From Lacrimispora amygdalina (GTDB lineage: Bacteria; Bacillota; Clostridia; Lachnospirales; Lachnospiraceae), in assembly GCF_003432035.1 (NCBI RefSeq), contig NZ_QOHO01000034.1, positions 1 through 58,105 on the forward strand: 58,105 nucleotides of DNA. The letters are read 5' to 3'. The translations under genes were made by a program, and so were the position numbers. This document shows positions 36,214-58,105 of the stretch, piece by piece (within the stretch, counting starts at the first letter, position 1; every line of letters starts with the position of its first letter). Under the pieces are notes generated by a model that did no database searches, was not told where the DNA came from, and saw only the letters and a list, made by a program, of their open reading frames with translations.

Positions 36214-36216
36214 TAT

Positions 36217-36768
36217 TTACTTCCATCCCTTCTTTGCTTCGAACTTCCCACAATCATCACAAGTATCCGGCCAATTCAGTTTCCATTCCAAATACTCATT
36301 TTCAGTAATCTCTTTATTAGCCAGATCCTGCTTTCGAATCATCCATTCCCTCATGAATTCATCAACCAACCCATAATTAAACCACATACCAACTGGCGGT
36401 TCATCTGGCCAGTAATCATCATTGTCATCATATTGGGCTACTGCCTTTGTGGTGGCTTTTTCTTTTTTATTACTTCGGATAAGAGAGAAAAGATTGATTG
36501 CGCCACGGTTATCTTCGTCCAGCCAGAAAAAAGTCTGCATAATATCTTCTGCGCTTCCTGGAACTTCGCTGACAAAGTTTAGTGGGTTAATATCCATAGC
36601 CTTTGCCATATCTATAAGCATGTCTTTTTGAGGAACTCTGTAATCGCATTCGTATTGTGCAATACGATTTGCAGCTCCTTTTTCTTCTAAACCAACAGCA
36701 ACTCCAAGTTCTTGCTGGGTCATTTTTCTGAGTTTTCGTACAAATTTTATTTTTTTACCAATGGTCAT
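36217..36768 (-). CDS. Xre-family transcriptional regulator
   Basis: A 183-aa regulator with an N-terminal Cro/CI-type HTH (residues 4-65: IKFVRKLRKMTQQELGVAVG and an IAQYECDYRVP recognition region). The C-terminal part is acidic, with a Cys pair (CDDCGKF). It starts after AAAGGAGG and heads the operon with the nucleotidyltransferase. It diverges from the xis-int side across a region holding three ATTCGC palindromes, the probable operators. A role as element repressor is inferred from position. Confidence 0.85.
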   Translation of the reverse strand: MTIGKKIKFVRKLRKMTQQELGVAVGLEEKGAANRIAQYECDYRVPQKDMLIDMAKAMDINPLNFVSEVPGSAEDIMQTFFWLDEDNRGAINLFSLIRSNKKEKATTKAVAQYDDNDDYWPDEPPVGMWFNYGLVDEFMREWMIRKQDLANKEITENEYLEWKLNWPDTCDDCGKFEAKKGWK

Positions 36769-36819
36769 AGTCTGCCTCCTTTACTGGAAATTAAATAAAA
36801 ATGAAACCTTATAGGACTT

Positions 36820-36847
36820 ATTATATCTGATAAATGAGATACAGTAA
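36820..36847 (-). promoter_or_regulatory. Leftward promoter of the xre operon
   Basis: On the minus strand TTACTG (36847-36842), 16-base spacer, TATAAT (36825-36820). The palindrome at 36857-36872 lies just upstream of its -35. Confidence 0.6.
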
Positions 36848-36855
36848 ATAAAAAT

Positions 36856-36943
36856 ATTCGCCTAGAGGCGAAAATGATATTGACATTCGCTATAATGCGA
36901 ATTATAATGGGTATCACAATAAAACATTCGCCATGAAGCGAAT
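36856..36943. promoter_or_regulatory. Three palindromic operator-like sites
   Basis: TTCGCC-TAGA-GGCGAA (36857-36872), ATTCGC-TATAAT-GCGAAT (36885-36902) and ATTCGC-CATGAA-GCGAAT (36926-36943), with a half site at 36983-36988. The second sits exactly in the spacer of the rightward promoter and the third is downstream of its -10. This is a classic repressor layout. Confidence 0.75.
36880..36908 (+). promoter_or_regulatory. Consensus rightward promoter toward xis-int
   Basis: Perfect TTGACA (36880-36885), 17-base spacer, perfect TATAAT (36903-36908). The spacer is filled by the palindrome ATTCGC-N6-GCGAAT, so the promoter would be strong when not repressed. Confidence 0.85.
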
Positions 36944-36971
36944 ACTAAAACAACTGAATGAGCGGTACCAT

Positions 36972-37100
36972 ATGTTAACAGACATTCGCCAAGACCTTCT
37001 GATAAGGAAGCGAGCGATGATGACACTCCCAGAACTGGCGGGAATATCTCACACAAGAGCAGTCCCGGGGCGCATAGCCGAGGTTGATTTACGCGAGTAG
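36972..37100 (+). CDS. Possible small protein, 42 aa
   Basis: ATG frame of 42 codons, opening MLTDIRQDLLIRKRAMMTLP and ending RIAEVDLRE. The ELAGIS segment resembles part of an HTH protein. There is no good ribosome binding site, so it may be a remnant or chance frame within the structured leader. Confidence 0.25.
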   Translation: MLTDIRQDLLIRKRAMMTLPELAGISHTRAVPGRIAEVDLRE

Positions 37101-37102
37101 CG

Positions 37103-37258
37103 ATGAGAATACTATGCTTGCATAAGTATTCGAGGAGCACCGCGAGAGTGTTAGAAAGAATTTCTAACACCGAAACATCAACAGCATATGAATACACAGA
37201 ACGCCAACGATTTTCCAAACAGGAAAACCGTAGTTATAACGTGAGTTATAGCACCTGA
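37103..37258 (+). CDS. Possible small protein, 51 aa
   Basis: ATG frame of 51 codons in a different frame from the preceding one, starting two bases after its stop. It is Ser/Thr/Arg/Tyr-rich (EYTERQRFSKQENRSYN). No Shine-Dalgarno sequence is visible and three hairpins lie inside it, so it is as likely to be RNA as protein. Confidence 0.22.
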   Translation: MRILCLHKYSRSTARVLERISNTETSTAYEYTERQRFSKQENRSYNVSYST

Positions 37259-37353
37259 TCTTGCTGCAATAGTCCAAACAAAGCCCGGCGGCCGGGGTGG
37301 TTCCCCAGGTCCCTAGTTAGATTATGAAATTTTTACACAAAGGAGGTGGACGG

Positions 37354-37542
37354 ATGGAAGGAGCAATTTATACTACAGCAGCTGAGATGGCAGAAATGCT
37401 TGGCATTTCAAAACCGTATGCGTATAAACTCATCAAACAGATGAATGAAGAGCTTGACGCAAAAGGTTTTATTACCATTCCTGGCAAAGTAGCAACTAAG
37501 TATTTTGAAGAGAAGTTTTACGGAGTAAAAGTAACAGCATAA
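37354..37542 (+). CDS. Excisionase-like small HTH protein
   Basis: A 62-aa protein with a MerR/Xis-type winged helix: TTAAEMAEMLGISKPYAYKL is the HTH. ATG 37354 follows AGGAGGTGG; an upstream ATG at 37324 lies before the ribosome binding site. Position directly upstream of the integrase suggests it directs excision or regulates int. Confidence 0.75.
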   Translation: MEGAIYTTAAEMAEMLGISKPYAYKLIKQMNEELDAKGFITIPGKVATKYFEEKFYGVKVTA

Positions 37543-37557
37543 CGAAAGGAGAAATTG

Positions 37558-38652
37558 ATGGCAGCATATAAAGATGAGGAGCGAGGCACATGGTATGTCT
37601 CGTTCCATTATTATGATTGGACTGGCAAGAACAAGCGCAAGTTGAAGCGTGGTTTCAAGACCAGGAGAGAAGCATTAGAGTGGGAGCAGCATTTTCGTAT
37701 GAAAGAAGAAGCTAATTTGGAAATGACTTTTGATGACTTTGTAGAAGCCTATACAAGAGATATGAAACCCAAATTAAAGGAAAATACTTGGAATACGAAA
37801 GAAGCGGTTATTAACAGCAAGATACTCCCTTATTTTAAGGACAAGAAAATGAAGGATATCAAACCGACAGATATTATTCAATGGCAGAATCAGATGATTA
37901 AGCTTAAGAATCCGCAGGGAGCATTATTTAAACCAACGTATCTGAAAACCATTCAATCTGAGCTGAGTGCATTATTTAATCATGCAGTACGATTTTATGA
38001 ATTGAAAGAGAATCCAGTGGTGAAGGCGGGGCCATTGGGAAAAGGAAAAGCAGACGAAATGCTCTTTTGGACAAAGGAAGAGTATTTGAAATTTATCGAG
38101 CAGGTTAAGGACAAACCAGTTTCCTATTATGCGTTTCAAATTCTCTATTGGTGTGGTCTTCGAATGGGAGAATTACTGGCATTAACACCAGCAGATATTG
38201 ATATTCCAAAGAGCATGATTCATATTACAAAATCTTATCAACGAATTAGGGGGAAGGATGTTATTACAGATCCTAAGACTCCAAAGAGTAAGCGCGATGT
38301 TGTGATTCCTGATTTCTTACGTAATGAACTACAGGATTATATGAGTCGATTATATGGAATTACCAAGAAAGATAGATTATTTCATATTACAAAAACATAT
38401 TTGCATCATGAGATGGATCGGGGTGCTAAGAAGGCAGGAGTCCAAAGAATTAGAATCCATGACCTTCGCCACAGCCACGTATCACTATTAATCAACATGG
38501 GATTTACAGCAGTAGCCATTGGTTCAAGAGTTGGTCATGAAAGTTCGGATATAACTTTCCGTTATGCACATATGTTTCCAAGTGAGCAGAAGCAGATGGC
38601 AACCATGCTAAATGATGCATTTGTGATTACAGATAAGGAAGGTGATGAATAA
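37558..38652 (+). CDS. int: Tyrosine recombinase / integrase of the element
   Basis: A 364-aa Tn916/phage-type integrase. An N-terminal AP2-like arm-binding domain (GTWYVSFHYYDWTGKNKRK, residues 8-50) is followed by a SAM-like core-binding domain. The catalytic domain has Arg in CGLRMGELLAL, a Lys-bearing beta-hairpin (TPKSKRDV), HDLRHSH, GHESSD and nucleophile Tyr in TFRYAHM. ATG 37558 has AAAGGAG at suitable spacing. The target is inferred to be the 3' end of guaA, where the element sits. Its stop overlaps the next start (TAATG). Confidence 0.95.
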   Translation: MAAYKDEERGTWYVSFHYYDWTGKNKRKLKRGFKTRREALEWEQHFRMKEEANLEMTFDDFVEAYTRDMKPKLKENTWNTKEAVINSKILPYFKDKKMKDIKPTDIIQWQNQMIKLKNPQGALFKPTYLKTIQSELSALFNHAVRFYELKENPVVKAGPLGKGKADEMLFWTKEEYLKFIEQVKDKPVSYYAFQILYWCGLRMGELLALTPADIDIPKSMIHITKSYQRIRGKDVITDPKTPKSKRDVVIPDFLRNELQDYMSRLYGITKKDRLFHITKTYLHHEMDRGAKKAGVQRIRIHDLRHSHVSLLINMGFTAVAIGSRVGHESSDITFRYAHMFPSEQKQMATMLNDAFVITDKEGDE

Positions 38653-39047
38653 TGCCTGGAGTTCATAAGAATCCAACGATTAGTTTTCGTATCTCGGATT
38701 ACGAGAGAAGAGAAATTGAAGCAAAGATTAAGGCAAGTGGAATGAGGAAGAAAGATTATTTTATTCGTTCCTGTATTTATAATCGTGTCTGTGTTGTTGG
38801 TAAGAAGGAGACTGTATATATGCTGGTGGAGGAATTGCAGAAAATGCAAGAGTATCTTCATCAGTTGCATGAACAGATTCTAGCAGAAGATATTCAGATA
38901 ACTAGCGCAGAAATACAGGAATTACAGCTAGACTACGAATATATGCTAAAAGCTATTCTGTGGATGCTTGAAGGGGCACGATATTTGTGGGAAGGAAAAA
39001 GTACAGCTGGGAAGGAGGGTGATAATTGTGGAGGAAACAAAAGTTGA
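38652..39047 (+). CDS. MobC-like / ribbon-helix-helix mobilization protein
   Basis: A 131-aa protein with an N-terminal ribbon-helix-helix motif (ISFRISDYERREIEAKI, MRKKDYFIRSCI), similar to MobC-type accessory proteins. A helical acidic middle follows. It is translationally coupled to int by TAATG, and its end overlaps the next gene by 20 bases. A second, more typical MobC lies at 42404. Confidence 0.65.
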   Translation: MPGVHKNPTISFRISDYERREIEAKIKASGMRKKDYFIRSCIYNRVCVVGKKETVYMLVEELQKMQEYLHQLHEQILAEDIQITSAEIQELQLDYEYMLKAILWMLEGARYLWEGKSTAGKEGDNCGGNKS

Positions 39048-40565: not shown

Positions 40566-41495
40566 ATGAATCAATATAGAGTAGATGGGAGCCTGATTAT
40601 TGCTGTAGATCACGGTTTCGGAAATATGAAAACAGCAAATATAGTATTTAGCAATGGAATGGCGGTATATGACACAGAGCCCATTATGAGCAGAGATTAT
40701 TTATTCTTCGAAGGAAAGTATTATGTACTGAATCAGGGGCATAAGCCATATGCTTCTGAAAAAATTAACGATGATGATTTTTATATCCTTACCATTGCAG
40801 CGATTGCAAAGGAACTTCGACTAAGAGGAATTACAAGAGAGCAAGTTCACCTTGCAGTAGGGTTACCACTAAAGTGGAGGGACGTACAGCAGGAGGAATT
40901 CAAGAGATATTTACTTCGAAATAAGCATGTGGAATTTACCTATTGTGGAAGCAAATATTTTGTAGACATTACCGGGTGCAGTGTAATGCCACAATGTTAT
41001 GCTGCTGTGGCAGAAAAGTTAGGTTCTTATCATGGACTTAATATGTTGGCTGATATTGGAAATGGAACCATGAATGTTATGTATCTTCAGGATGGTAGAA
41101 CCATTGAGAAAAAGATGTGGACGGAAATCCTTGGGGTGAAACAATGCGCCTTGTTGATTCACGATGCGGTGCTCAATAAGTTTCAGGTGGAATTGGATGA
41201 AAGCCTGTTAAATTCCTATCTTATGAAGGGAAGAGCCGATGTGGATGAAGAATATCTGATGTTCATGGAAGAGACAGCAAAAACCTATGTGCAAAGTATT
41301 TTCTTGAAATTAAAGGAGCTTGGCTATAATTCCAAACTGATGAAACTGCATTTCATGGGTGGTGGAGCAAAATTGGTAGAGCTTTTTGGAGGATATGAAG
41401 CGACAAGGGTATCTTTCAATCATGACATTTGTGCCAATGCCAAAGGCTTCGAGTATTTCTGCTATCTCGCAATGCGTAAACACAGACGTGCTTAA
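40566..41495 (+). CDS. ParM/StbA-like actin-type segregation ATPase
   Basis: A 309-aa actin-fold ATPase. Phosphate-1 loop VDHGFGNMKTAN near residue 14, phosphate-2 loop ADIGNGTMNVMYL near residue 158 and the adenosine motif LHFMGGGAKL are visible. Such proteins form filaments that push plasmid copies apart. With the next gene and the adjoining repeats it makes a type II partition cassette, unusual baggage for a purely integrated element. Confidence 0.85.
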   Translation: MNQYRVDGSLIIAVDHGFGNMKTANIVFSNGMAVYDTEPIMSRDYLFFEGKYYVLNQGHKPYASEKINDDDFYILTIAAIAKELRLRGITREQVHLAVGLPLKWRDVQQEEFKRYLLRNKHVEFTYCGSKYFVDITGCSVMPQCYAAVAEKLGSYHGLNMLADIGNGTMNVMYLQDGRTIEKKMWTEILGVKQCALLIHDAVLNKFQVELDESLLNSYLMKGRADVDEEYLMFMEETAKTYVQSIFLKLKELGYNSKLMKLHFMGGGAKLVELFGGYEATRVSFNHDICANAKGFEYFCYLAMRKHRRA

Positions 41496-42438: not shown

Positions 42439-42772
42439 GAAGGATTGTCACGTTTCTTTGAAATTATCAGAGGAAGATTTTATGAAACTGGAGTCAGATG
42501 CGAAATCAGCAGGAATGGATCGAAGTAAATATTTGCGAGCTTTGATTCAGAATGTAAAAGGAATTGATCCAACATTTATGGCAGATAGGGCACAGTTAAT
42601 CAGAAAAGTTTCTGGAGTATCAAACAATGTGAATCAGATGGCACATCTTGCAAATGCGCAAGGGCAGATATATTTTTCTGCAATAGAAGAGGCGCGTCAG
42701 GAAGTGGTAAAGCTTCAGGATATTTTGAAGGAGGTACTAGACGTATGGCAATTACGAAAATCATGCACATGA
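42404..42772 (+). CDS. mobC: MobC-family relaxosome protein
   Basis: A 122-aa MobC-type accessory protein that helps open oriT for the relaxase. An N-terminal ribbon-helix-helix (VSLKLSEEDFMKLESDAKSAG) is followed by the family segment RKVSGVSNNVNQMAHLANAQG. ATG 42404 follows GGAGG at eight bases. Its 3' end overlaps the relaxase start by 28 bases. Confidence 0.85.
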   Translation: MTNGKRKYLSCKKDCHVSLKLSEEDFMKLESDAKSAGMDRSKYLRALIQNVKGIDPTFMADRAQLIRKVSGVSNNVNQMAHLANAQGQIYFSAIEEARQEVVKLQDILKEVLDVWQLRKSCT

Positions 42773-44796
42773 ATTCGGAGAAAAACCGTAATCCGGCACA
42801 ACATCTTCAAAACGCACTAGAGTATATTCAAAATCCAGACAAAACTGAGAAATTATTTTTGGTGGGCAGTGTAAACTGTTTGCCAGAAACAGCCTTTGAA
42901 CAGATGATGGATACAAAGAAGCTATTTCAGAAGACGAATAAGAGGCAGGGATATCATATCGTACTGTCTTTGAAGCCAGGAGAGGGAACACCAGAAATTG
43001 CATTTGATATGGCACGAAGATTCACGGAGGAATTTCTTGGTGACAGATATGAAGCTGTTTATGCCGTTCATATTGATAAAGATCATATTCATAGTCACAT
43101 CGTTTGGAATAGTGTGAGTCTTCTTGATGGAAGAAAGTATGATTATAAGAAGGGTGACTGGAAGCACATAATTCAACCCATTACCAACAAGCTTTGCAAA
43201 GAATATGGTCTGTCCATTGTCGAAGCAGAGTATGTGAAGAATTCGCAGAATCTTTCCAGAAAAGAATGGCAATATGAACAGACATTTAAAGAAATGATTC
43301 ATCGAGACGCAATGTTTTGTGCTTCCTACGCTGGGAGCATGGAACATTTTTTGTTTTTAATGCAGCGATTGGGGTATGAATTCAAGTCGAAAGAATATCT
43401 TACAGTGAAGATGCCAGGGCGTAAGTTGTATCATCGATTGGATAAGATGGATGAATATTTTGCAGAGGAAAGATTCAAATATTGCTTTGAATACACCAGT
43501 ATGAATATACCCTACTTTCATGCTACAAATCCAACTTGGATAAAGCGCAGTAATATGTCACCCTATCAAAAGCAATTTTATGGAAAGATGTATCGTTTGC
43601 GAATGATTGAGCAGAAACGCTTTTATGTGAAATCAGCCAAGTATGCCAAGGATTTGATGCTATTTCATAAGTTGCAGGAAGAGTATCTGTTTCTTGCAAA
43701 TAATAATATTCGTACCATTGAGGGTTTACTTGATATTAGAGAAAGTAATCTGGAGCGTATTGATGAAATCACAAAGATTCAGGACTCTATTTATAAGCAG
43801 AATTCTAGTAAGAAAAGAGCTTGTAATTCTGATGGGGATTGGAGAGCGTATCAGCAATGGCGCATTGATGAATATAGCAAGCTGGATCAGCTGAAGGTCG
43901 AGAAAAAAGAAGCCAAGAATATGGTTGCAATGGCAGAGCGATGTTTGGCTGAAAAGATAGATACAGCAATGGATGTGATATCAGAGTTTGAAGAAATTAG
44001 TTCTACGAATAAGATTGAAATTCCTGAGTTTGTTGAGGAGAGAGTGGTGGAGACGAAAGCTGAAGTTATAAGGGGAGATTCTTATTTTGAGGATGAACAG
44101 GCATTTACGGATCAGAAATCAATAGAGAGGCCAACGGTATTTTATGAGGAGAAGCCTAAATGGGATGAAGCGTTGCAAGAACACCAAGAGATAGTGGAGC
44201 ATATAGGGCAGTCGCAATATAAGGATGTTCCGTTACGAGTGGAGCCACTGGCAAGTGAGGAAAATTTACAAAGTTTTGTGCTAAATCAAGTAGAAGCAAA
44301 ACCGGAATTAGTGGCTTATACAGAGCCACTTCCTGCTAGGTTTTCGGAGTATTCTCTTTTATCTGTAGAAGAAAAAGTGAAGCGTTATAAGATGACGGGT
44401 AAGGAAGATGTTTATGCTATGGTAGAAGCTTATTTTAAGCGCATTGGTCATCCAATTTATTTTGGAGAAGTGTATGATGAGGCTCAGGAATTGGAAAAAG
44501 CTTATAAATCCAGTTTGATAGCGGAACAATCGGAATTAATAGCTGTGGAGATGCTTGTAGATGGAATTACTCCGGAATCATATTCTCTTTTATCTGTTGG
44601 TTCTAAGGCAAAGTATATTGTATTTGATATGACCGATAATAACTATAATTTGAACTTATATAAAGAAGTTATGAGGAAGATGAATCAAAAGATGTCCAGC
44701 TCTGAATTGTTTGAAGGATATCAGGAGATTTATGAGGCGAAGATGATGAATCGGGTCGATACAAATCAAGAGAAGAAATGGGACAGAAGTAGGTAG
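42745..44796 (+). CDS. MOBP-type relaxase (MobA/VirD2-like)
   Basis: A 683-aa relaxase that nicks oriT and carries the strand into the recipient. The N-terminal 200 residues hold the relaxase domain: a candidate catalytic Tyr in ALEYIQNP (about residue 27), and the metal-binding histidines in GYHIVLSLKPGE and HIDKDHIHSHIVWN. The rest is charged, with helical linker regions. A related segment occurs twice in the C-terminal part (YSLLSVEEKVKRYKM and YSLLSVGSKAKYIVF). A strong terminator follows. Confidence 0.92.
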   Translation: MAITKIMHMNSEKNRNPAQHLQNALEYIQNPDKTEKLFLVGSVNCLPETAFEQMMDTKKLFQKTNKRQGYHIVLSLKPGEGTPEIAFDMARRFTEEFLGDRYEAVYAVHIDKDHIHSHIVWNSVSLLDGRKYDYKKGDWKHIIQPITNKLCKEYGLSIVEAEYVKNSQNLSRKEWQYEQTFKEMIHRDAMFCASYAGSMEHFLFLMQRLGYEFKSKEYLTVKMPGRKLYHRLDKMDEYFAEERFKYCFEYTSMNIPYFHATNPTWIKRSNMSPYQKQFYGKMYRLRMIEQKRFYVKSAKYAKDLMLFHKLQEEYLFLANNNIRTIEGLLDIRESNLERIDEITKIQDSIYKQNSSKKRACNSDGDWRAYQQWRIDEYSKLDQLKVEKKEAKNMVAMAERCLAEKIDTAMDVISEFEEISSTNKIEIPEFVEERVVETKAEVIRGDSYFEDEQAFTDQKSIERPTVFYEEKPKWDEALQEHQEIVEHIGQSQYKDVPLRVEPLASEENLQSFVLNQVEAKPELVAYTEPLPARFSEYSLLSVEEKVKRYKMTGKEDVYAMVEAYFKRIGHPIYFGEVYDEAQELEKAYKSSLIAEQSELIAVEMLVDGITPESYSLLSVGSKAKYIVFDMTDNNYNLNLYKEVMRKMNQKMSSSELFEGYQEIYEAKMMNRVDTNQEKKWDRSR

Positions 44797-45230: not shown

Positions 45231-45327
45231 TGTAAGTCCTGAAAAAGGGACAGGTATATGTGGTAGACTTTAGAGAAAAAGATAATGAAGTTACATATAA
45301 AATATACATTTATATAGGGAGATGACT

Positions 45328-48216
45328 ATGAGTTTTGATTATGGGGAGGCAAATAAAGAGCAGAGATTTGCAATAGAAACTACAGATGGTCCACTTTTAA
45401 TTATTGCAGGACCAGGAACAGGAAAAACATATACACTGGTAAAACGAGTTGTTTATTTGATTACAGAATGTAGTGTAAATCCAGAAGAAATTATGATAGC
45501 TACATTTACTGAAAAGGCTGCAAAGGAATTAATTACGCGTATCACCAATGAATTATTGAATATCGGAATATCTATAAACATAAATGAAATGTATATAGGT
45601 ACGTTTCATTCTATTTGCTTAAGAATACTAAAGGAGCATTTGGAATATACGCGAATTAAAAAGAACTATCGAATGCTGGATAATTTTGACCAGCAATATA
45701 TGGTTTTTCAGAAGATAAATGAATTTCGTAAAGTAGAATATTTCGATACTTTATTTCCCAATGCTACGGGAGCGTGGAGACAAGCAGGAACTATTGTAAA
45801 ATATGTAAATAATTTATCGGAAGAGTTAGTAAATATTGAAGCAATGCAGATGGATTCTGATGAAAGCGTTGTTGCAATAGCAAATATAATGGATACATAC
45901 TATTTTATTCTGGAGCAAGATAACCTAATTGATTTTGCAAGCATTCAGACGGAAACACATAGACTGTTGTTAAATCATCCCGAAATACTTGAAGAAATTA
46001 GAGAAAAAATTAAGTATGTAATGGTTGATGAATATCAGGATACCAACTATATACAGGAATTACTAGTATTCTTAATAGCTGGAGAAAATGTAAATATCTG
46101 TGTAGTTGGTGACGATGATCAAGGCCTTTATCGTTTTAGAGGAGCCACCATTCGGAACATTCTGGAATTTCCTGGACATTTCGAAGAAGGAATATGTAAA
46201 CAGGTAAAACTTGTTACAAATTATCGTTCTGAGAAGCAAATTATTGATTTTTATAATGAATGGATGAAAACGACAGATGGCAGGGCGTATGATTTCTTAT
46301 GGAAAAATTTTCGATTCGATAAGAAAATTGTTCCAGGAAAAAAGAATTACAGTGAAAAGACAGCTGTTTTGAAATGTTCTGGAAAAGAAATTCCAGAAGA
46401 TTGGTATGAACAGGTATTAAACTTTATTTTGAATTTAAAAAAGAAAGGCATTCTTACAGATTATAATCAGATAGCTTTTTTGTGTCGTTCAGTAAAAAAT
46501 GATAAAGTTATCGATTTGATAGAGTATTTGGAAGATCATGATATTAAAGTATATTCTCCGCGTTCTGAAATGTTCTTTAAACGAAAAGAAATTAAAGAGG
46601 CATTGGGTTGCTTATTGTTGTGTTTTCCAGAATACATATCTAAACTTAGGGATCGAGACTTTAAATTTGACTTTAGAGAACTATATGATTATTACGGGAA
46701 TGAATGCATAAAAGCTGCGAAGGAACTGATTCAAAATAATAAGGATACAATAGGAAAATGGATTACTGAAAAAATGAAAAAGCATAGTAATCTAAGTAGG
46801 GATAATGCAGACTATGCTTTTACAGGTTTACTATATCAATTATTTCAATTTGAACCATTCAGTGAGTATCTTGGTATAGAAATGAAAACTGGTGTAGTGG
46901 ATGAGAGACCTGCCAGAAACTTGTCGATTCTAACATCTATTCTTGGAAAGTATGAATATTTACATCGAATTGATGTATTTACAGAATCTAACATTGAGCA
47001 AGCAGTAGAACGATTTTTTAACATGTATCTGAGATTTTTAATTGATGGTGGAATCACAGAATATGAAGATGATACGGAGTATGCACCGAGTGGATGTATT
47101 TCGTTTATGACGATTCACCAATCGAAAGGAATGGAATTTCCGGTAGTAATGGTTGATTCGTTGAATGCAGCACCTAGAATTAACTCAACTGCAGTTATTG
47201 AAGATATAGAGAATAAATATTTTCATCGAAGCGTATTTGAAAGTCGAGAGGATATTAAGTACTTTGATTTCTGGAGACTATATTATACGGCATTTTCAAG
47301 GGCACAGAATCTGTTGGTATTATCTTGCTGTGAAAAGAATGGAAGAGGTGCAACACCAAGTAAATATTTTGAAGAATTTTATAATAAGCTACCAGATTAT
47401 GAAGATGTGAATTTGGAAGACATAATTTTAGAAAAAGTAAAACCTGTTAATATCAAAGATACATTTTCTTTTACTTCTCATATAGCACTATTCGAAAATT
47501 GCGCTTTGCAATATAAGTTTTTCAAAGAATTAGGCTTTACGCAAGTGAGAGTTGGGGCAACTTTATTTGGAACATTGGTACATGAGACAATTGAAGATGT
47601 TCATAGAGCTGCTATGCGAAAAGAAGAGAGTACGATTATTCCTGAAAATATAAGGGATTGGTTTGACACAAATTACACAACTCTTTCTAAGAGTGAGCAT
47701 TCCTATTTAGGGCAAGCACAGATTGAAGCCGCCTATAAGCAGGTAATGAGATATGTAGAACGCACTAAGAAGGATTGGAGCATAATTCAAGATGCAGAAG
47801 TTGAAGTAAGCCTTGTGAAATCGGATTATATATTAATGGGAAAAGTTGATTTGATACGTGGAGAAGGCGATACTGTAGAAATTGTTGATTTTAAATCTGA
47901 GAAGAAACCAAATGTATTAATTGAAACTGAGGAAATGAAACGATATCGAAGACAACTAGAGGCTTATGCACACTTAATCGAAGAAAAAACAGGTAAGTCA
48001 GTAAGTAAAATGCATCTCTATTATACGGGTGAAGAAAATGGTGTTCCAACAATAAGTTTTGACAAATCAAATACTTCAATAGGTGCTACCATTCAAGAGT
48101 TTGATAAAGTTGTAGAGAAAATTCAGAAAAAAGATTTTTCAGGTAGGGCAAAAGATAAAAATCTATGCGCCAACTGTGATATGAGACACTATTGTAAACG
48201 AAAGGAAGCAAAATAA
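45328..48216 (+). CDS. UvrD/Rep-type helicase fused to AddB/Cas4-like Fe-S nuclease
   Basis: A 962-aa superfamily 1 helicase-nuclease. Helicase motifs: AGPGTGKTYT near residue 30, TFTEKAAKEL, GTFHSICLRIL, VDEYQDTN, GDDDQGLYRFRGA, TNYRS, MTIHQSKGMEFP and YTAFSRA. The C-terminal 270 residues carry a PD-(D/E)XK nuclease: GTLVHETIE, MGKVDLIRG...EIVDFKSEKK, and RRQLEAYAHLI. Cysteines for a 4Fe-4S cluster are present (FENC early; LCANCDMRHYC at the end). ATG 45328 fits GGGAG better than ATG 45322. It overlaps the methylase start by one base, so it belongs to this RM-like operon. Confidence 0.88.
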   Translation: MSFDYGEANKEQRFAIETTDGPLLIIAGPGTGKTYTLVKRVVYLITECSVNPEEIMIATFTEKAAKELITRITNELLNIGISININEMYIGTFHSICLRILKEHLEYTRIKKNYRMLDNFDQQYMVFQKINEFRKVEYFDTLFPNATGAWRQAGTIVKYVNNLSEELVNIEAMQMDSDESVVAIANIMDTYYFILEQDNLIDFASIQTETHRLLLNHPEILEEIREKIKYVMVDEYQDTNYIQELLVFLIAGENVNICVVGDDDQGLYRFRGATIRNILEFPGHFEEGICKQVKLVTNYRSEKQIIDFYNEWMKTTDGRAYDFLWKNFRFDKKIVPGKKNYSEKTAVLKCSGKEIPEDWYEQVLNFILNLKKKGILTDYNQIAFLCRSVKNDKVIDLIEYLEDHDIKVYSPRSEMFFKRKEIKEALGCLLLCFPEYISKLRDRDFKFDFRELYDYYGNECIKAAKELIQNNKDTIGKWITEKMKKHSNLSRDNADYAFTGLLYQLFQFEPFSEYLGIEMKTGVVDERPARNLSILTSILGKYEYLHRIDVFTESNIEQAVERFFNMYLRFLIDGGITEYEDDTEYAPSGCISFMTIHQSKGMEFPVVMVDSLNAAPRINSTAVIEDIENKYFHRSVFESREDIKYFDFWRLYYTAFSRAQNLLVLSCCEKNGRGATPSKYFEEFYNKLPDYEDVNLEDIILEKVKPVNIKDTFSFTSHIALFENCALQYKFFKELGFTQVRVGATLFGTLVHETIEDVHRAAMRKEESTIIPENIRDWFDTNYTTLSKSEHSYLGQAQIEAAYKQVMRYVERTKKDWSIIQDAEVEVSLVKSDYILMGKVDLIRGEGDTVEIVDFKSEKKPNVLIETEEMKRYRRQLEAYAHLIEEKTGKSVSKMHLYYTGEENGVPTISFDKSNTSIGATIQEFDKVVEKIQKKDFSGRAKDKNLCANCDMRHYCKRKEAK

Positions 48217-52702: not shown

Positions 52703-53731
52703 ATGGCAAAGGATTTAACAACTTCACAAGTTGATAGACAGAACATTTTAAATAATGATTTAGCAGTTCGTGAAGTACAAAATCAAACTGGGTTACAGGG
52801 GATAATTTTTGAAGATAAATTGTGTTTTACAAAATCTATGACTGCAACATATTTTGATGTTGATGTTCGAACGATAGAAAGATATGTCAGCGAAAACACA
52901 GAAGAAATTTCTATTAATGGCTATGAAATCTTAAAAGGCAAAAGATTAAAGACATTTATTGACTGTGTAATCAGCCAAGATGTTCCCGACATAAATGTCG
53001 GGAACATCAGTAATCGCACACCCCAAATTGCAATATTTGGATTTAAAGCGTTTTTAAACATGGCAATGTTACTGACTGAAAGTGAAAATGCAAAAACGCT
53101 ACGTAAAATCATGTTGGATATCGTAATTGATTTTGTCAATCAACGAACAGGTGGCTCAACGAAATATATTAATCAGCGTGATCAAGATTTTATCAGTGCC
53201 TTTCTACAGGAAGAGAATTACAGGAGAGAATTTACGGACGCCCTTCGCGATTATGTTGATATGGGAAATAGTAAATATGCTATTTATACAGATAAGATAT
53301 ATCAAAGTATTTTTAAAGAGAAGGCAACGGAGTACAAAAAGATATTGCGTCTGACAGAAAAAGACAGAATACGAGACACATTATATTCAGAGGTACTAGA
53401 TTTGATTTCGTCATATGAGTGCGGATTAGCTGCAATGATGAAAGAACAATCTGAACAACTGGGACGCAAGCTAAATAACTGGGAAATGACAGATCTCTTT
53501 GCTTCATTTGAAACTCTTCCTCTATGGAAACCATTGATTGTAAGAGCTAGAACAAAAATGGCTAGTCGTGATATGGCATTGCGCGATGCTTTCCATTTTC
53601 AACTTGAGGAATATATTAAACCATTGGAACCAGAAGAATATGAAAGATTTCTTGGTGTTGCTGGGGACGAATTAGAAAAGTTGATGAAGGAGAATCAGGA
53701 TGTGCTTCTTAGGTTAAAGGAGCGTGAATAG
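52703..53731 (+). CDS. DNA-binding, antirepressor-like protein upstream of Doc
   Basis: A 342-aa protein, not firmly classified. Residues 35-75 form an HTH-like part (SMTATYFDVDVRTIERYV). Residues 95-150 resemble Bro-N/RhuM-type antirepressor regions (FKAFLNMAMLLTESENAKTLR). The C-terminal half is helical. Its stop codon is directly followed by the Doc start, so it may be the antitoxin or regulator of that toxin in place of a classical Phd. Confidence 0.65.
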   Translation: MAKDLTTSQVDRQNILNNDLAVREVQNQTGLQGIIFEDKLCFTKSMTATYFDVDVRTIERYVSENTEEISINGYEILKGKRLKTFIDCVISQDVPDINVGNISNRTPQIAIFGFKAFLNMAMLLTESENAKTLRKIMLDIVIDFVNQRTGGSTKYINQRDQDFISAFLQEENYRREFTDALRDYVDMGNSKYAIYTDKIYQSIFKEKATEYKKILRLTEKDRIRDTLYSEVLDLISSYECGLAAMMKEQSEQLGRKLNNWEMTDLFASFETLPLWKPLIVRARTKMASRDMALRDAFHFQLEEYIKPLEPEEYERFLGVAGDELEKLMKENQDVLLRLKERE

Positions 53732-54187
53732 ATGGGGAAAGTCAATTATATTTCTTTAGAAGAAGCATTAGAAATTCATAAGTCAACTATTGAAAACAGT
53801 GGTGGTGGAGACGATGGTGAGCTTGATACTGGAAAGTTAGACAGTGTATTAACACATATACAAAATGATGAGTATTACCCGACATTCTTGGACAAGTTGG
53901 AACATTTATTCTTTTGCGCTTGTAAATTTCATTGCTTTATTGATGGAAATAAAAGAATAGCTATTACATTAACCGCAATGTTTTTGCTGAAAAATGGATA
54001 TATGTCCATTGCTAATATTTATTTCAGAGAAATGGAAAATATCAGCTACCATGTAGCCGCAGGTCATATTGATGAGGAACTGCTTAAAAGAATACTGGAA
54101 GCAATTTTAAATTGTACTTATGATGAGGACGAGTCGTTAAGACTTGAAATATTTAATGCAATTTCGGTTGAGGATGAGTTTTACTAG
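53732..54187 (+). CDS. Fic/Doc-family toxin-like protein
   Basis: A 151-aa Fic-fold protein. The active-site loop HCFIDGNKRIA near residue 70 matches HxFx(D/E)GNKR. Doc proteins phosphorylate EF-Tu; Fic proteins AMPylate targets. No inhibitory helix motif (S/TxxxE[G/N]) is clear, so inhibition may come from the upstream protein. ATG 53732 abuts the preceding TAG, indicating coupled translation. Confidence 0.85.
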   Translation: MGKVNYISLEEALEIHKSTIENSGGGDDGELDTGKLDSVLTHIQNDEYYPTFLDKLEHLFFCACKFHCFIDGNKRIAITLTAMFLLKNGYMSIANIYFREMENISYHVAAGHIDEELLKRILEAILNCTYDEDESLRLEIFNAISVEDEFY

Positions 54188-54271: not shown

Positions 54272-54316
54272 GCCTAGTTAGTAGGAATGGAGAACGAAAA
54301 AGGGGAAGGAATTATT

Positions 54317-55141
54317 ATGTCAATAAGCTCAATAGAAAGTAAGATTCGCTCACTTCAATCAGAAGTTGAACGTTTATCCAGAGAGTTGGAACGTGAAGGT
54401 AATAAGGAAGTAGGATATCTTAAAAATATTCAAAGAATAGAGAAGTCTGTAAATAAAAATACTTCTATAACTCAAATGAAATCGAAACAACGTTCGATTG
54501 ACTCTGATAACGAGAAAATTTTGAAAAGCAGAAAAAATCAAACAGATATTAATGTAAAAATCAATAAAAAAAGAATGGAAATATCTAAAGCCCAAAGTGA
54601 ATTGCAGAAAGAACAAGCTAAACTTTATGATGCTTCTCTCAAAAAACAAAACTCTATTATTGAAGAACAACGACAATTGATTAATGAGATAAAAGTCTCT
54701 ACGTCTACTATAGGAAATGCTAATATTTCAGAAGAAAAGGAATATGATTTTTTTATATCTCATGCATCGGAAGACAAGGAAGCAATTGCTGAACCTTTAG
54801 CTACTTCGCTTATAGATAAAGGCGCAAAAGTATGGTATGACAAATTCACTCTAAGAGTCGGAGACAGTTTAAGGAAGTCAATAGATGATGGACTTGCAAA
54901 TTCTAGATATGGAATTGTTATATTGTCTGAACCATATTTTAAGAAGTTTTGGACGGGAGAAGAATTAAATGGCTTATTTGCTAAGCAAGAAGATGGGAGA
55001 AAAGTGATTTTACCATTGTGGCATAATATTTCCAAAGATGTTGTGAAAAAAAAGAGTCCTATGCTTGCGGATATGCTAGCTTTAAAATCGGCAGACTTCA
55101 CAGCAGAAGAGTTGGCAGAAGAGTTTATACAATTGTTGTAA
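54317..55141 (+). CDS. Coiled-coil TIR-domain protein
   Basis: A 274-aa protein. Residues 1-125 form a heptad-rich coiled coil (IESKIRSLQSEVERLSREL). Residues 140-265 form a TIR domain: YDFFISHASEDKE (box 1), VWYDKFTLRVGDSLRKSID, GIVILSEPYFKKFW, and a candidate catalytic Glu in the TGEELNG segment near residue 215. Bacterial TIR domains often cleave NAD+ during phage defence. ATG 54317 follows GGGGAAGGA; ATG 54287 has no usable spacing. Confidence 0.88.
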   Translation: MSISSIESKIRSLQSEVERLSRELEREGNKEVGYLKNIQRIEKSVNKNTSITQMKSKQRSIDSDNEKILKSRKNQTDINVKINKKRMEISKAQSELQKEQAKLYDASLKKQNSIIEEQRQLINEIKVSTSTIGNANISEEKEYDFFISHASEDKEAIAEPLATSLIDKGAKVWYDKFTLRVGDSLRKSIDDGLANSRYGIVILSEPYFKKFWTGEELNGLFAKQEDGRKVILPLWHNISKDVVKKKSPMLADMLALKSADFTAEELAEEFIQLL

Positions 55142-55194: not shown

Positions 55195-55824
55195 ATGTGT
55201 TTACAAGCAATTGATGATAATATTTCATTTACAGAGTATAAAAAATGGATTGATAAATACATACGTAATAATGATACAAGGGAAATTAATTTTCAAAATG
55301 ATGTTATTAAAAGATTAATTGAAAAATTGTTTCCAAAATATGATGTTGTAAATGTTGGAACAAAAGGATCGGATACTGCTAAACATAATTATTATCATTA
55401 TTCAGGAAAATATATAGATAATCTAGGTCGAGAGAAGCCAACAACTCCGGACATTTTGGTGGCAAACAATTGGAATTGGTATAATATTGAGCACGAAAAT
55501 GAAATTAAGTATATTGCAACCATTGAGGTGAAATCTCCTTATGGAAAAGAGGCAATATATAAAAGTGATTGTTGCAACTGTCCAGCGCAAATTAATAGAC
55601 ATTTAAGTGCTGAGAAGATTGATAAAGTAATTTATACTGATTCATTTGAATGGAGATTTTATACGCAAAATAAATTGGATAACCCGGAAAAATTTAGTTT
55701 TGTTAATAGAATAAGAATCGGAAGAGGTTATACATATGAATGGAAAACAGAGGCTTATGCGCAAGAAGAATTTGATAAACTAATAAAGAAACTGAAAGAT
55801 TTTTTGGTAATTATGAAGGAGTAG
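55195..55824 (+). CDS. PD-(D/E)XK nuclease-like protein
   Basis: A 209-aa protein. It has TTPDILVANN near residue 82 and ATIEVKSPYG near residue 105, the Asp...Glu-x-Lys pattern of restriction nucleases, followed by QINRHL (a Q-x3-type helix). N-terminal helices resemble type I HsdR N-terminal or Mrr-like folds. A strong AGGAGG site precedes the ATG. It lies 53 bases after the TIR gene, probably in one operon. Substrate unknown. Confidence 0.72.
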   Translation: MCLQAIDDNISFTEYKKWIDKYIRNNDTREINFQNDVIKRLIEKLFPKYDVVNVGTKGSDTAKHNYYHYSGKYIDNLGREKPTTPDILVANNWNWYNIEHENEIKYIATIEVKSPYGKEAIYKSDCCNCPAQINRHLSAEKIDKVIYTDSFEWRFYTQNKLDNPEKFSFVNRIRIGRGYTYEWKTEAYAQEEFDKLIKKLKDFLVIMKE

Positions 55825-55846: not shown

Positions 55847-55861
55847 TTCGCAAATAGCGAA
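55847..55861. promoter_or_regulatory. Fourth ATTCGC-type palindrome, at the retron promoter
   Basis: TTCGC-AAATA-GCGAA, a five-base-spacer variant of the element's palindromes, nine bases upstream of the -35 of the retron-like unit. Confidence 0.5.
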
Positions 55862-55869
55862 AAAACATA

Positions 55870-55898
55870 TTGACATTTTGAGATTAATGTCGTAATAT
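55870..55898 (+). promoter_or_regulatory. Promoter of the retron-like unit with overlapping palindrome
   Basis: TTGACA (55870-55875), 17-base spacer, TAATAT (55893-55898). The palindrome GACATT-N8-AATGTC (55872-55891) overlaps the -35 and spacer and could be the operator of the HTH protein downstream. Confidence 0.75.
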
Positions 55899-55900
55899 AA

Positions 55901-56108
55901 GCATACAGCATATCGATATATTTATTATATCGTGGTCTAATCCCATAAATTGGAGTGTATTTGCACTTGAGGAGCATCTTAGTATGCTCTACGGTTAGGG
56001 GCCGGCATGTTACGCAATGACCCGTGGCACGCTGCTAGCACCGCACGCTCTGCCTCGCTCGGGGGAGCTCGGCAGAGCTCAATGGATTAGATAGGTTGTT
56101 CTGTATGC
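55901..56108 (+). ncRNA. Retron-like msr-msd RNA (boundaries approximate)
   Basis: GCATACAG (55901-55908) and CTGTATGC (56101-56108) can pair as retron a1/a2 ends. Inside are hairpins CGATATA/TATATCG (55914-55932) and GAGCAT/ATGCTC (55972-55989). A long-range pair TCTAATCC/GGATTAGA (55936-55943, 56084-56091) and a GC-rich stem CTCTGCC/GGCAGAG (56048-56054, 56071-56077) are also present. GC content jumps here relative to flanks. The predicted transcript start (about 55905) falls inside a1, so the exact 5' end is uncertain. Confidence 0.65.
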
Positions 56109-56170
56109 ACCACACTTCTTGCGGGGTGGAAGCTATAAACTATAAAAGTAGCTTCTAAAGGAGTGATGAT

Positions 56171-56347
56171 ATGAAAAAAATGCTGTTCGTGCAGAATGTT
56201 CAGGTAGCGCCTCAAAAACCTAACAAAAAATCTAGTAAGAAGCGAAAAAAACTTAGAAGCAAAATTTTTAAAATTGGGTTTCGAGGTATTGAAGCATTAT
56301 GGATGCTGTTGCAGATTGTGCAGTATCTCTTGCAGATTTTTAAATAA
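56171..56347 (+). CDS. 58-aa basic/hydrophobic small protein
   Basis: ATG 56171 follows AAAGGAGTGATGAT. The N-terminal half is strongly basic (KPNKKSSKKRKKLRSKIFK). The C-terminal half is hydrophobic or amphipathic (ALWMLLQIVQYLLQIFK), like a membrane-active peptide. It lies between the structured RNA and the HTH gene, where a retron accessory or effector would be. No family is recognised. Confidence 0.65.
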   Translation: MKKMLFVQNVQVAPQKPNKKSSKKRKKLRSKIFKIGFRGIEALWMLLQIVQYLLQIFK

Positions 56348-56434
56348 GAGGAGGGCTATAGAAAAACCTATCTAATTTTGTTTTTTAGTCGTTAGACTTC
56401 ATATACATAGAATATTTTAGAAAGGTGGGTAAAT

Positions 56435-56725
56435 ATGATAGGAGATATTTTAAAGCGAACTAGGACTATATATGGATATAAAGCGTCTGATATGAGCGAA
56501 ATGCTTCAAATATCAAAAAGCTATCTTTCTGAGATTGAGAATAATAAGAAACAGCCATCACTTGAATTGCTAGAGAAGTATTCTGAAATTTATGAAATGA
56601 AATTATCTTCCCTGATATTATTGTCAGAAAACTACGACGATGCAAATAAAAATAATAAGGGTGACAAATTCATTAGAAATATGATGATAAAGCTTATTGA
56701 GAAGATGACACCAGATGTGGAGTAG
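56435..56725 (+). CDS. HTH (Xre-type) protein of the retron-like unit
   Basis: A 96-aa protein with an Xre HTH (ILKRTRTIYGYKASDMSEML, SKSYLSEIENNKKQPSLELL, residues 5-60) and a basic tail. AGAAAGGTGGG precedes the ATG. It ends two bases before the RT start. Small HTH accessory genes occur beside some retron RTs (the class called type VI is one candidate); it may regulate the unit through the GACATT palindrome. Confidence 0.82.
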   Translation: MIGDILKRTRTIYGYKASDMSEMLQISKSYLSEIENNKKQPSLELLEKYSEIYEMKLSSLILLSENYDDANKNNKGDKFIRNMMIKLIEKMTPDVE

Positions 56726-56727
56726 CA

Positions 56728-57663
56728 ATGGAAAATAAATGGAAGAAATATGATATTACACAGTGTGCTTTTTATAAATGTAATAGTCCTAAAAATTTAA
56801 AAAGAATATTACAAATAAAAGATGAAGAGTATAATGATATTTTTTCGATTGTAAAGTATCATGGATTTTCGATTGACAAAAAAGATGGTATCGAAAAGAG
56901 AAATATTACTGCACCTGACAAGAGAATAAAAGCTATACAAGGTCGAATATTACGACTATTTCAAAAAGTTGAAAGGCCTGAATGGCTTATTTCAGGTGAA
57001 AAAGGGAAATGCTATATTGATAATGGAAAACAGCATGTTTTTTCAAATTATTTTTTAACAATAGATATTAAGAAATTTTATGATAATTGTAAGAGAGAAT
57101 ATGTTTTTCGCTTTTTTAAAGATCGAATGCTGATGACAGGAGATTTGGCAGGTTTATGTACCGATATTGTAACTTATGAAGGGGGAATTCCAACTGGGTG
57201 TCCTACAAGTCAGTTAATTGCCTATTATGCATATGAAAATATGTTTAAAGAAATATATGAAGTAGCGACTGAATATAGTTGTATATTTACAGTATATGTT
57301 GATGATATGACTTTTTCCTCAGAAAAAGCTTTTGATGTTAATAAAATGGTGAATAAGGTAGACTGTACTTTAAGAAAGTATGGTCATAAACCAAAATATA
57401 AAAAGGTGAAATATTATTCACAGGGTCAATATGTTCCGATAACAGGAACCATTGTTACAGGAAAACATGAAATTAAGGTTCCAAATCAATTACAAAAGAA
57501 GGTATATGATGAGTTCCAAGAAATTAAAACTCTTAATACAGAAAACTTGACAGATAAAGAACAGAAGAAGATAAATAGTCTCAAAGGAAGAATTCAAGCT
57601 TCGAGAAATATTGAAGATGGAAAATTTCCTGAGATACGGAGGCTTGTTAATAAGATAGGCTGA
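56728..57663 (+). CDS. Retron-type reverse transcriptase
   Basis: A 311-aa RT of retron size. Visible motifs are DNGKQHVF (resembling the retron NAxxH element), motif A LTIDIKKFYDNC near residue 113, motif B GIPTGCPTSQL near residue 155, catalytic YVDDMTFSS near residue 190, and the retron VTG-type segment TGTIVTGKHEIKVPN near residue 240. No maturase or endonuclease domain is present, which argues against a group II intron. It would extend msDNA from the adjoining RNA. Confidence 0.9.
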   Translation: MENKWKKYDITQCAFYKCNSPKNLKRILQIKDEEYNDIFSIVKYHGFSIDKKDGIEKRNITAPDKRIKAIQGRILRLFQKVERPEWLISGEKGKCYIDNGKQHVFSNYFLTIDIKKFYDNCKREYVFRFFKDRMLMTGDLAGLCTDIVTYEGGIPTGCPTSQLIAYYAYENMFKEIYEVATEYSCIFTVYVDDMTFSSEKAFDVNKMVNKVDCTLRKYGHKPKYKKVKYYSQGQYVPITGTIVTGKHEIKVPNQLQKKVYDEFQEIKTLNTENLTDKEQKKINSLKGRIQASRNIEDGKFPEIRRLVNKIG

Positions 57664-57670
57664 ATTTTGG

Positions 57671-57688
57671 TGATACCGTTATGATACC
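57671..57688 (+). repeat. Right arm-type repeat pair TGATACC-N4-TGATACC
   Basis: Same heptamers, spacing and orientation as at the left end (34368-34385), 103 bases inside attR. Only the four spacer bases differ (GTTA versus TTTT). Confidence 0.7.
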
Positions 57689-57766
57689 CAAAGCTTATTA
57701 TACACAAAATAATACATAGAATTCCCGGACTAATTGCAATTAAATAACAGCAAATATATCAAATAA

Positions 57767-57784
57767 ATTCGCTTTAAAGCGAAT
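57767..57784. promoter_or_regulatory. Palindrome beside attR
   Basis: ATTCGC-TTTAAA-GCGAAT, a perfect palindrome of 20 bases with flanking A/T, seven bases before the attR core. It belongs to the same family as the operators at 36856-36943. Confidence 0.7.
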
Positions 57785-57791
57785 TGTTAGG

Positions 57792-57802
57792 GAGTTTGAA
57801 TA
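57792..57802 (+). other. attR core (direct repeat GAGTTTGAATA)
   Basis: Identical to the 11-base guaA end at 34298-34308. Confidence 0.8.
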
Positions 57803-57810
57803 AAATATTT

Positions 57811-57859
57811 AGAGCCAGAAAACCTTGTAAAATCAAGGGAATCTGGCTCTTTTCTTTTT
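57811..57859 (+). terminator. Terminator immediately right of attR
   Basis: AGAGCCAGA (57811-57819) pairs with TCTGGCTCT (57842-57850), with an inner CCTTG/CAAGG stem, then TTTCTTTTT. It is either the ancestral guaA terminator or the end structure of a second element. Confidence 0.85.
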
Positions 57860-57863
57860 GTAT

Positions 57864-57881
57864 TGGAACTAAAATGGAACT
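57864..57881 (+). repeat. TGGAACT-N4-TGGAACT repeat pair
   Basis: Heptamers at 57864-57870 and 57875-57881, 11 bases apart, the same geometry as the TGATACC arms but a different sequence. Candidate integrase arm sites of a neighbouring element. The region from 57882 to 58003 holds no gene I can support. Confidence 0.5.
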
Positions 57882-58003
57882 AGAAACAATCCTGGAGCTT
57901 TTCCGCCACCTCATTACGCTTGTGTGGAAATAGGTGGGAATAGGTGTTTGATAGTGTCAAGATTTTTTCGCAAATTGTATTTCAGCCGTTAGGTAGCCGG
58001 TAG

Positions 58004-58105
58004 TCAGCCGGCTATGATATCAGACTGATTTTGGAGATCCAATTCTTTCAGGTGCTCCATATTCATGTAGCGCTTTGTACCCCATTGGGTTCCAGCTACG
58101 TGTCG
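58004..58105 (-). CDS. C-terminal fragment of an unrecognised protein, cut by the window edge
   Basis: A leftward frame enters at the window edge and gives 33 residues containing GTQWGTKRYMNMEHLKEL and ending DIIAG before TGA at 58004. The gene would continue to the right. A second frame is also open for 27 codons here, so frame choice is uncertain. No family is assigned. Confidence 0.3.
   Translation of the reverse strand, partial: RHVAGTQWGTKRYMNMEHLKELDLQNQSDIIAG

Follow-up and report, generated by a model that had tools for sequence, protein, structure and literature searches.

A type VI retron unit of Lacrimispora amygdalina with a small peptide gene enclosed by a conserved, predicted RNA helix

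Composition, classification, and relatives of the unit

The stretch of DNA analysed here (the window) comprises 58,105 nucleotides (nt) of Lacrimispora amygdalina contig NZ_QOHO01000034.1 (assembly GCF_003432035.1) and carries a retron unit at positions 55847-57663. In order along the forward strand, on which all features of the unit lie, this interval contained a palindrome, a promoter, a structured RNA, an open reading frame (ORF) of 58 amino acids (aa), a gene for an XRE-type helix-turn-helix (HTH) protein, and a gene for a reverse transcriptase (RT). An initial annotation had called the unit complete on the basis of its promoter, RNA, peptide, HTH, and RT parts, and each of these was found in its place. 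Every frame was open, and both the catalytic YVDD and the RNA stems were retained.

The RT (56728..57663) matched the PADLOC model RT_VI with 303 bits (E = 5.2e-91), compared with 132 bits (E = 7.6e-39) for the next-best model, and the retron-type motifs that had been read from its translation (YVDD, IPTGCPTSQ, and an ITG/VTG segment) were confirmed. The solved sequences nearest to it were retron RTs, e.g., Ec86. In a maximum-likelihood tree of 55 rows, the window RT fell within a 34-row branch with support of 100/100, composed of one Clostridium RT without a detected HTH and 33 rows that we ourselves labelled type VI; outside it fell two longer, untyped RTs encoded in the window's own genome. 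An affiliation with group II intron or diversity-generating retroelement (DGR) enzymes was not found as far as it was tested, with the NCBIfam model group_II_RT_mat scoring 19 bits (cut-off, 300) and a tree that took in no DGR and no typed group II reference. The XRE/SinR-like HTH protein is encoded at 56435..56725, directly upstream of the RT gene with a 2-nt gap, and matched PADLOC HTH_VI at E = 4.4e-31; its residues were well conserved, and SinR was nearest to it by sequence among solved structures. The expected pairing of a retron-clade RT with an HTH neighbour was thereby borne out, and profile matches and tree placement together assign the unit to the type VI retrons.

Relatives were collected with an RT alignment, which provided 62 loci in species genomes and another 3 in viral contigs (a single-sequence query found no RT relatives in the latter), and 12 further loci came from phages and plasmids, for a total of 78 including the window. 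A 61-locus set was obtained by removing 13 loci without a detected HTH and four with short upstream sequence (L044, L058, L079, and L109, where L-numbers denote loci). The unit was rare: of 397 genomes from the family, 4 had an RT match at 1e-30, as did 2 of 391 from the class (own genome counted in), and two of the four family matches (genomes G373 and G531) had stops inside the match. The nearest named relative of the RT came from Faecalicatena contorta, also of the Lachnospiraceae. An order-wide RT_VI search matched 104 of 295 genomes at E ≤ 0.001, and 30 matches were made into loci; since only the window's own locus combined the peptide with a strong HTH match (a weak HTH match was seen in L012), many of the order-wide matches appear to be other RTs. 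Within Escherichia coli, the unit of coliphage P2_2H1 was matched in 99 of 5426 genomes, 98 of which carried at least 80% of it, the remaining one (L121) being a diverged complete copy. By annotation name, no gene was missing among the 60 E. coli rows listed, L121 apart, the frames themselves being read in retrieved copies only.

The tiny basic and hydrophobic protein noted initially between the RNA and the HTH gene corresponds to the 58-aa ORF at 56171..56347, a basic (net charge +14) and probably membrane-seeking peptide with a hydrophobic C-terminal helix, and a candidate effector. A search of 5.8 billion proteins recovered a family of 94 (weakest E = 3.4e-8), of which 81 were 55-58 aa long; no Pfam domain was present in any of the 94, and Pfam, NCBIfam, PADLOC, and PHROGs held no model for the peptide. 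The ratio of nonsynonymous to synonymous substitution rates (dN/dS) was 0.10-0.31 among five clade A genes (10 pairs) and 0.10-0.32 among clade C peptides (20 pairs with a defined value), so the peptide is under purifying selection.

The peptide's slot is, by these comparisons, constant across relatives and its sequence is not. An ORF led by a Shine-Dalgarno (SD) site was found near the HTH gene in 48 of the 61 loci against 1.0 expected from shuffles (ATG start, at least 40 aa, SD-like site, and an end no more than 110 nt from the HTH gene). The 13 misses included four kin-like ORFs falling short of these criteria (L042, L066, L068, and L071), ORFs of 28 and 31 aa (L083 and L096), a longer frame overlapping the HTH gene (L072-L074), and an ORF with an early stop (L055). 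Clade A and clade B peptide profiles matched each other (hhalign 99), and shared traits were a basic stretch and a hydrophobic helix. Small ORFs were also seen upstream of the RT in four Campylobacterota loci (L080, L082, L085, and L089) and in Clostridium L076, all belonging to the window's RT branch and none with a convincing HTH match, a count made with no chance control. Because such loci keep the small ORF, it may be a more constant partner of the RT than the HTH protein is. L076, which belongs to the same RT branch as type VI, has a hydrophobic upstream ORF of 64 aa. The same 64-aa ORF was observed in L097 (L004), likewise without a detected HTH.

The palindrome at the start of the unit, TTCGCAAATAGCGAA (55847..55861), is a candidate operator of the HTH protein, which the initial annotation had not listed as such. 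Its pattern, TTCGCN5GCGAA, matched exactly at one place in the window (0.02 expected) and at three in the 5.9-Mb host assembly, no more than the five found for the pattern read backwards, so a wide HTH regulon is not suggested. It stood upstream of the promoter in 25 of the 61 loci, at -304 to -393 relative to the peptide start, in hosts ranging from Bacillota through phages and plasmids of Pseudomonadota to a plasmid of the cyanobacterium Scytonema, and was not found in TTCGCN5GCGAA form in the other 36; clade C had a variant, TATCGCTNNNAGCGATA, in L059 and L060, with close forms in L063 and L064. Sites resembling TCGCTNNNAGCGA are candidate binding sites, and we infer that the HTH protein regulates the unit's own promoter, because the palindrome occurs in several phyla and the protein is SinR-like. 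It looks like a transcription regulator rather than an effector, with the peptide being the likelier effector. Two TTCGC-N6-GCGAA palindromes elsewhere in the window (36886-36901 and 57768-57783) resembled the N5 form; one has TATAAT inside and lies upstream of an integrase gene, and the other lies downstream of the RT.

The proposed promoter was recovered as a sigma-70-like TTGACA - TAATAT pair for the operon (55870..55898), and a TTGAC-N-TA promoter pattern occurred in the upstream region of 39 of the 61 loci. A small hairpin, AGTC-GTTA-GACT, was also observed between the peptide and HTH genes (56387-56398). Its stem bases vary in relatives by eye, and it sits between -35-like and -10-like sequences; it could represent a second promoter or something akin to a terminator.

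Conserved RNA pairing around the peptide gene

Comparison of loci revealed two segments, on either side of the peptide ORF, that are complementary to one another and had not been listed in the initial annotation. The 5' strand of this long-range helix, GATTAGATAGGTT (56085..56097), lies at the msd 3' end, and the 3' strand (56365..56377) begins 17 nt past the peptide stop codon. Pairing was assessed in a set of 19 loci, in which the RTs of the other 18 were 48-77% identical to that of the window; L042 was left out of the alignments of this set (A4 and A6) as its noncoding RNA (ncRNA) was not alignable, and L050 as a near-copy of L043. In alignment A4, 242 of the 244 cells of the 13-pair helix were paired (99.2%), and 6 of the 13 pairs were changed on both sides. 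Covariation was 0.304 against 0.196 in shuffled alignments (0/500), and slid controls were paired at 24-57%. Save for the two unpaired cells, all departures from Watson-Crick pairing were G-U in the sense RNA, and the segments therefore fit an RNA helix rather than DNA sites. By this comparison, the peptide ORF appears to be enclosed by a long-range RNA clamp.

A helix-only test gave p ≤ 0.01 in all 13 clade A and clade B loci. Among 28 more distant loci, 12 reached p < 0.05, with other sequences pairing at the same place, e.g., AAUAGAUUAGUU with AACUAAUCUAUU in clade C L063, GAAGGGUCGAGCGGUU with GACCGCUCGGCUUUUU in Gordonibacter L054, and AAUUAAUCAGGU with GCCUGAUUAAUU on the Enterococcus plasmid L110. 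The combined Fisher value for the distant loci, 2.7e-13, treats the loci as independent, and four of the 12 are close kin. This test replaced a whole-region duplex swap control that proved noisy (own pairs -30.0 kcal/mol, swapped pairs -21.5 kcal/mol; own partner first in 5 of 59 loci), we think because GC content dominated it. Both the helix-only test and the test of the RNA ends described below used hand-entered values for stacking energies. In predicted transcript folds, the helix had a probability of at least 0.79 in 17 of the 19 loci. A T-rich run followed the 3' segment in many loci, and the sequence of that segment is that of the first bases of the expected complementary DNA (cDNA), pairing at the expected start site.

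The RNA itself was strongly folded, with -102.8 kcal/mol for 55893-56165 (z = -5.3; none of 200 shuffles as low). Its msr-msd core was placed at 55899..56108 with approximate ends. Two msr stem-loops were resolved, GAGTGT x GCACTT at 55953..55968 (98.2% of cells paired, 3 of 6 pairs double-changed) and GGAGCAT x ATGCTCT at 55971..55990 (100% paired, 4 of 7 double-changed). A closing stem of 5 bp (55940..56127; 98.9% paired) joins ATCCC (55940-55944) to GGGGT (56123-56127), with an outer pair that was CG, AU, GC, or UA in 18 of the 19 loci. Together, the two stem-loops and the closing stem were paired in 99.1% of 337 cells, with 10 of 18 pairs double-changed and a covariation of 0.451 against 0.228 shuffled (0/500; slid controls paired 40-58%), figures that benefit from the choice of stems, which were those of the RNAalifold consensus for this very alignment (A6). 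An msd terminal hairpin, CTCTGCC ... GGCAGAG (56048..56077), taken from the window fold, was paired in the 6 closest of the 19 rows, and its register shifts in more distant rows. No Rfam family reached its gathering score (five sub-threshold chance matches only), so that the suggested covariance-model search for a retron msr-msd family came back empty and new alignments were used instead; the anticipated conservation of RNA structure among homologues was upheld by the covarying stems. The 8-base ends noted initially, GCATACAG (55901-55908) and CTGTATGC (56101-56108), do pair in the window (p = 0.023 against shuffles) and resemble retron a1/a2 ends. Over the 19 loci, the window among them, their pairing was no better than chance (Fisher's p = 0.23), so that they look specific to the window and their role as a conserved a1/a2 closing stem is not supported; the stem that is kept is 55940-55944 x 56123-56127.

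The closing stem reaches into the loop of a further hairpin (56113..56165), tying the msr to the ribosome site of the peptide. In the window's minimum free energy fold, this ribosome site is predicted to fold onto an upstream pyrimidine-rich stretch, CACTTCTT (56113-56120) pairing with AAGGAGTG (56158-56165) and an inner stem joining 56129-56136 to 56148-56155. An ungapped helix between the SD site and an anti-SD stretch was present in 18 of the 19 loci, a count that has no shuffle control, and the nineteenth (L043) was mis-anchored by the script. The predicted unpaired probability of the SD site was at most 0.22 in 15 of the 19.

A model for the peptide and its alternatives

We propose, with a probability of about 0.45, that the peptide is the RNA-controlled effector of this type VI retron and that the ncRNA doubles as the leader of the peptide mRNA. 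The HTH protein would bind the palindrome and set transcription of the whole unit, and the ncRNA would serve both as template for multicopy single-stranded DNA (msDNA) and as mRNA leader. With its ribosome site folded in a hairpin, the peptide would be held back at the RNA level. Retron RTs copy the msd from its 3' end, which here would be a strand of the clamp. Since the strand on which the RT would start is the clamp's 5' strand, reverse transcription and the clamp should exclude each other: clamped RNA would not be a free template, and a copied template could not clamp. As long as RT and msDNA are intact, the peptide would be kept low. A phage that interferes with the RT, breaks down msDNA, or changes RNA turnover would cause the peptide to be made, whereupon it would damage the membrane and stop the infected cell.

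Control at the RNA level is suggested by the overlap of clamp and template strand together with the folded ribosome site. The model draws more broadly on the RT_VI and HTH_VI matches, the selected peptide, the long-range helix, and the covarying closing stem, and also on the regulatory appearance of the HTH protein, the small ORF kept in HTH-less loci, the setting in a defence island, and Fontibacillus panacisegetis L055, whose RT and peptide frames are both interrupted. A wider claim, which we regard as possible though less likely than not, is that type VI retrons in general are RNA-switch toxin systems: a single RNA would serve as msDNA template and as leader of the mRNA for a toxic peptide, and RT copying of the template's 3' end would compete with the clamp, making peptide synthesis a direct report on reverse transcription.

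Several observations weigh against the model. Toxicity, msDNA, binding, and roles in defence are predictions from sequence. The clade C and Pseudomonadota peptide profiles did not match that of clade B (hhalign 0.2 and 13), and the helix was more amphipathic than its shuffled versions (p < 0.05) in 7 of 28 cases, the window's peptide (p = 0.15) not being one of them. Three Bacteroidota loci among the misses (L086, L087, and L093) have an acidic ORF of 78-80 aa in the peptide's place. These acidic ORFs are possibly a different partner. RT frames were apparently interrupted and the small ORF open in L078, L081, L083, and L084, which are metagenome-derived, so that the interruptions may be assembly or start-call errors. 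Joint loss of RT and peptide, considered as a toxin signature, was accordingly not decisive, with one case for it (L055) and four against. No significant complementarity at the helix site was found in 16 of the 28 distant loci, including the Klebsiella phage locus L105 (p = 0.75).

The predicted folds also count in part against the clamp. For the window, a clamp-free fold with the 8-base ends paired was 2.3 kcal/mol better (probability of the clamp 0.11), a difference that makes the clamped and unclamped folds close in energy; the clamp-free fold was 1.9 kcal/mol better in L036 (probability of the clamp 0.03) and, when all pairs were forced, 2.4 kcal/mol better in L095. When the clamp was forced rather than forbidden, predicted access to the ribosome site shifted by more than 0.1 in 4 of the 19 loci and was unchanged in 15, rising in the window (0.02 to 0.16), L043, and L045 and falling in L049. 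The idea that the clamp frees the ribosome site is therefore weak, with three changes up, one down, and no uniform folding support.

Of the other explanations, the least improbable, though on balance unlikely, is guarding at the protein level, with the RT, ncRNA, msDNA, and perhaps the HTH protein holding the finished peptide until phage attack on msDNA frees it, and the helix serving only processing or stability. Such guarding is the rule in characterised retrons, as far as the available parts of the sources describe them (PMC12548924; type IX Kva2), and a basic peptide could bind nucleic acid; the compensatory conservation of the long-range helix and the closing stem would however be left unexplained. 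That the HTH protein is itself the effector or main output, e.g., as a transcriptional switch for host genes, with the peptide playing a secondary part, for instance as chaperone or antitoxin, seems improbable to us. The PADLOC type VI models consist of HTH_VI and RT_VI, and the HTH residues are well conserved, but an operator-like palindrome at the unit's own promoter and a pattern no more frequent in the genome than its reverse (3 versus 5) do not suggest a wide regulon, and related loci without a detected HTH carry the small ORF.

The segment past the peptide might instead be an RNA primer that pairs with the template 3' end and is extended by the RT in place of, or beside, the 2'-5' branch. 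Its identity with the first cDNA bases at the expected start site, the T-rich run behind it in many loci, and the lack of conserved classical a1/a2 ends would all fit, yet the RT has ordinary retron motifs and the idea hinges on a purely hypothetical RNA end directly after the segment; we give it a slim chance. Slimmer still is the chance of a decayed or domesticated remnant making no msDNA, to which the weak a1/a2 ends of relatives and the predicted status of msDNA production here would point, against open frames, a kept catalytic YVDD, and kept RNA stems. Hardly credible, and dropped, is a reading of the complementary segments as two DNA operator copies for the HTH protein. An HTH gene does occur here, downstream of the 3' segment, but the mismatches are of the G-U type in sense RNA with only 2 of 244 cells unpaired, and the separate palindrome fits an operator better. 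The conserved clamp around the peptide gene makes the peptide a testable candidate for the missing type VI effector.

Genomic setting and comparison with known systems

Positions 36217-58105 have the look of an integrative mobilisable element, and the retron unit lies at its right end, within the defence cargo. Genes of the element encode an integrase (37555-38652), an actin-like protein (40566-41495), a MobA/VirD2-like relaxase (42745-44796), and a UvrD helicase with PD-(D/E)XK (45322-48216). A search for att sites yielded no exact direct repeat of at least 11 bases between 36000-38700 and 57600-58105. Besides genes resembling those of type III restriction-modification, the cargo includes genes for a Fic/PDC-M59 pair and for a TIR protein. 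The TIR protein (54287-55141) matched the PADLOC candidate PDC-S66 (3.3e-91), and PDC-M59A/B (52703-54187), the second of which is the Fic protein, adjoin its gene. Between these and the retron, 55195-55824 encodes a 209-aa protein with no Pfam match above cut-off, in which an IEVK stretch may point to a nuclease-like fold.

The paper of Mestre 2020 is said to be the one that defined the type VI class. A layout of RT, DNA-binding protein, and small auxiliary protein is ascribed to that work in the accessible portion of a later source (PMC8541194), and the 58-aa ORF of the window supplies the small auxiliary protein. The window RT and HTH fit the profiles of type VI retrons (Mestre et al. 2020 classes; PADLOC RT_VI and HTH_VI), and no anatomical feature of the unit conflicts with membership. 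Type VI is thus a described class, albeit a poorly understood one with a presumed role against phages, and small proteins in it are already in print, as far as that portion goes (PMC8541194). Within the open-licence literature searched, parts of which were accessible, no type VI effector, mechanism, long-range helix, or operator was found; relative to it, three features are new: the long-range helix, the folding of the ribosome site, and the operator-like palindrome that recurs across loci.

Shewanella phage MuM16-1, Klebsiella phage ST147-VIM1phi7.1, and coliphage P2_2H1 resemble the window in having an HTH gene directly before the RT gene and a small ORF in the same slot, which is annotated in the Klebsiella phage, lies inside a longer annotated frame in P2_2H1, and was found by script in MuM16-1. 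They differ in that their peptide profile is unrelated to that of clade B, the clade closest to the window's peptide, and the Klebsiella phage copy (L105) in that its long-range pairing is not significant (p = 0.75).

In hok/sok-type toxin mRNAs, which belong to the type I toxin-antitoxin systems, a small membrane-active protein is encoded by an mRNA that is shut by pairing between its leader and the region after the ORF. The window unit likewise has long-range pairing flanking a small ORF, and membrane activity of its peptide is predicted. It differs in that its leader is a retron template copied by the RT and no antisense RNA is known, with toxicity being a prediction only.

The type IX retron Kva2 offers a likeness of another kind, since both retrons have a DNA-binding protein as partner. 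As described in the available part of its source, Kva2 holds a HEPN toxin in a complex of RT, winged-helix (WH) protein, and msDNA; its effector is thus a HEPN RNase in a protein complex, whereas the window unit is without an enzyme-like effector. Should the clamp link cDNA synthesis with translation, the output of the window's retron would be unlike the guarding of a finished protein in the characterised types, as far as these are covered by the sources at hand.

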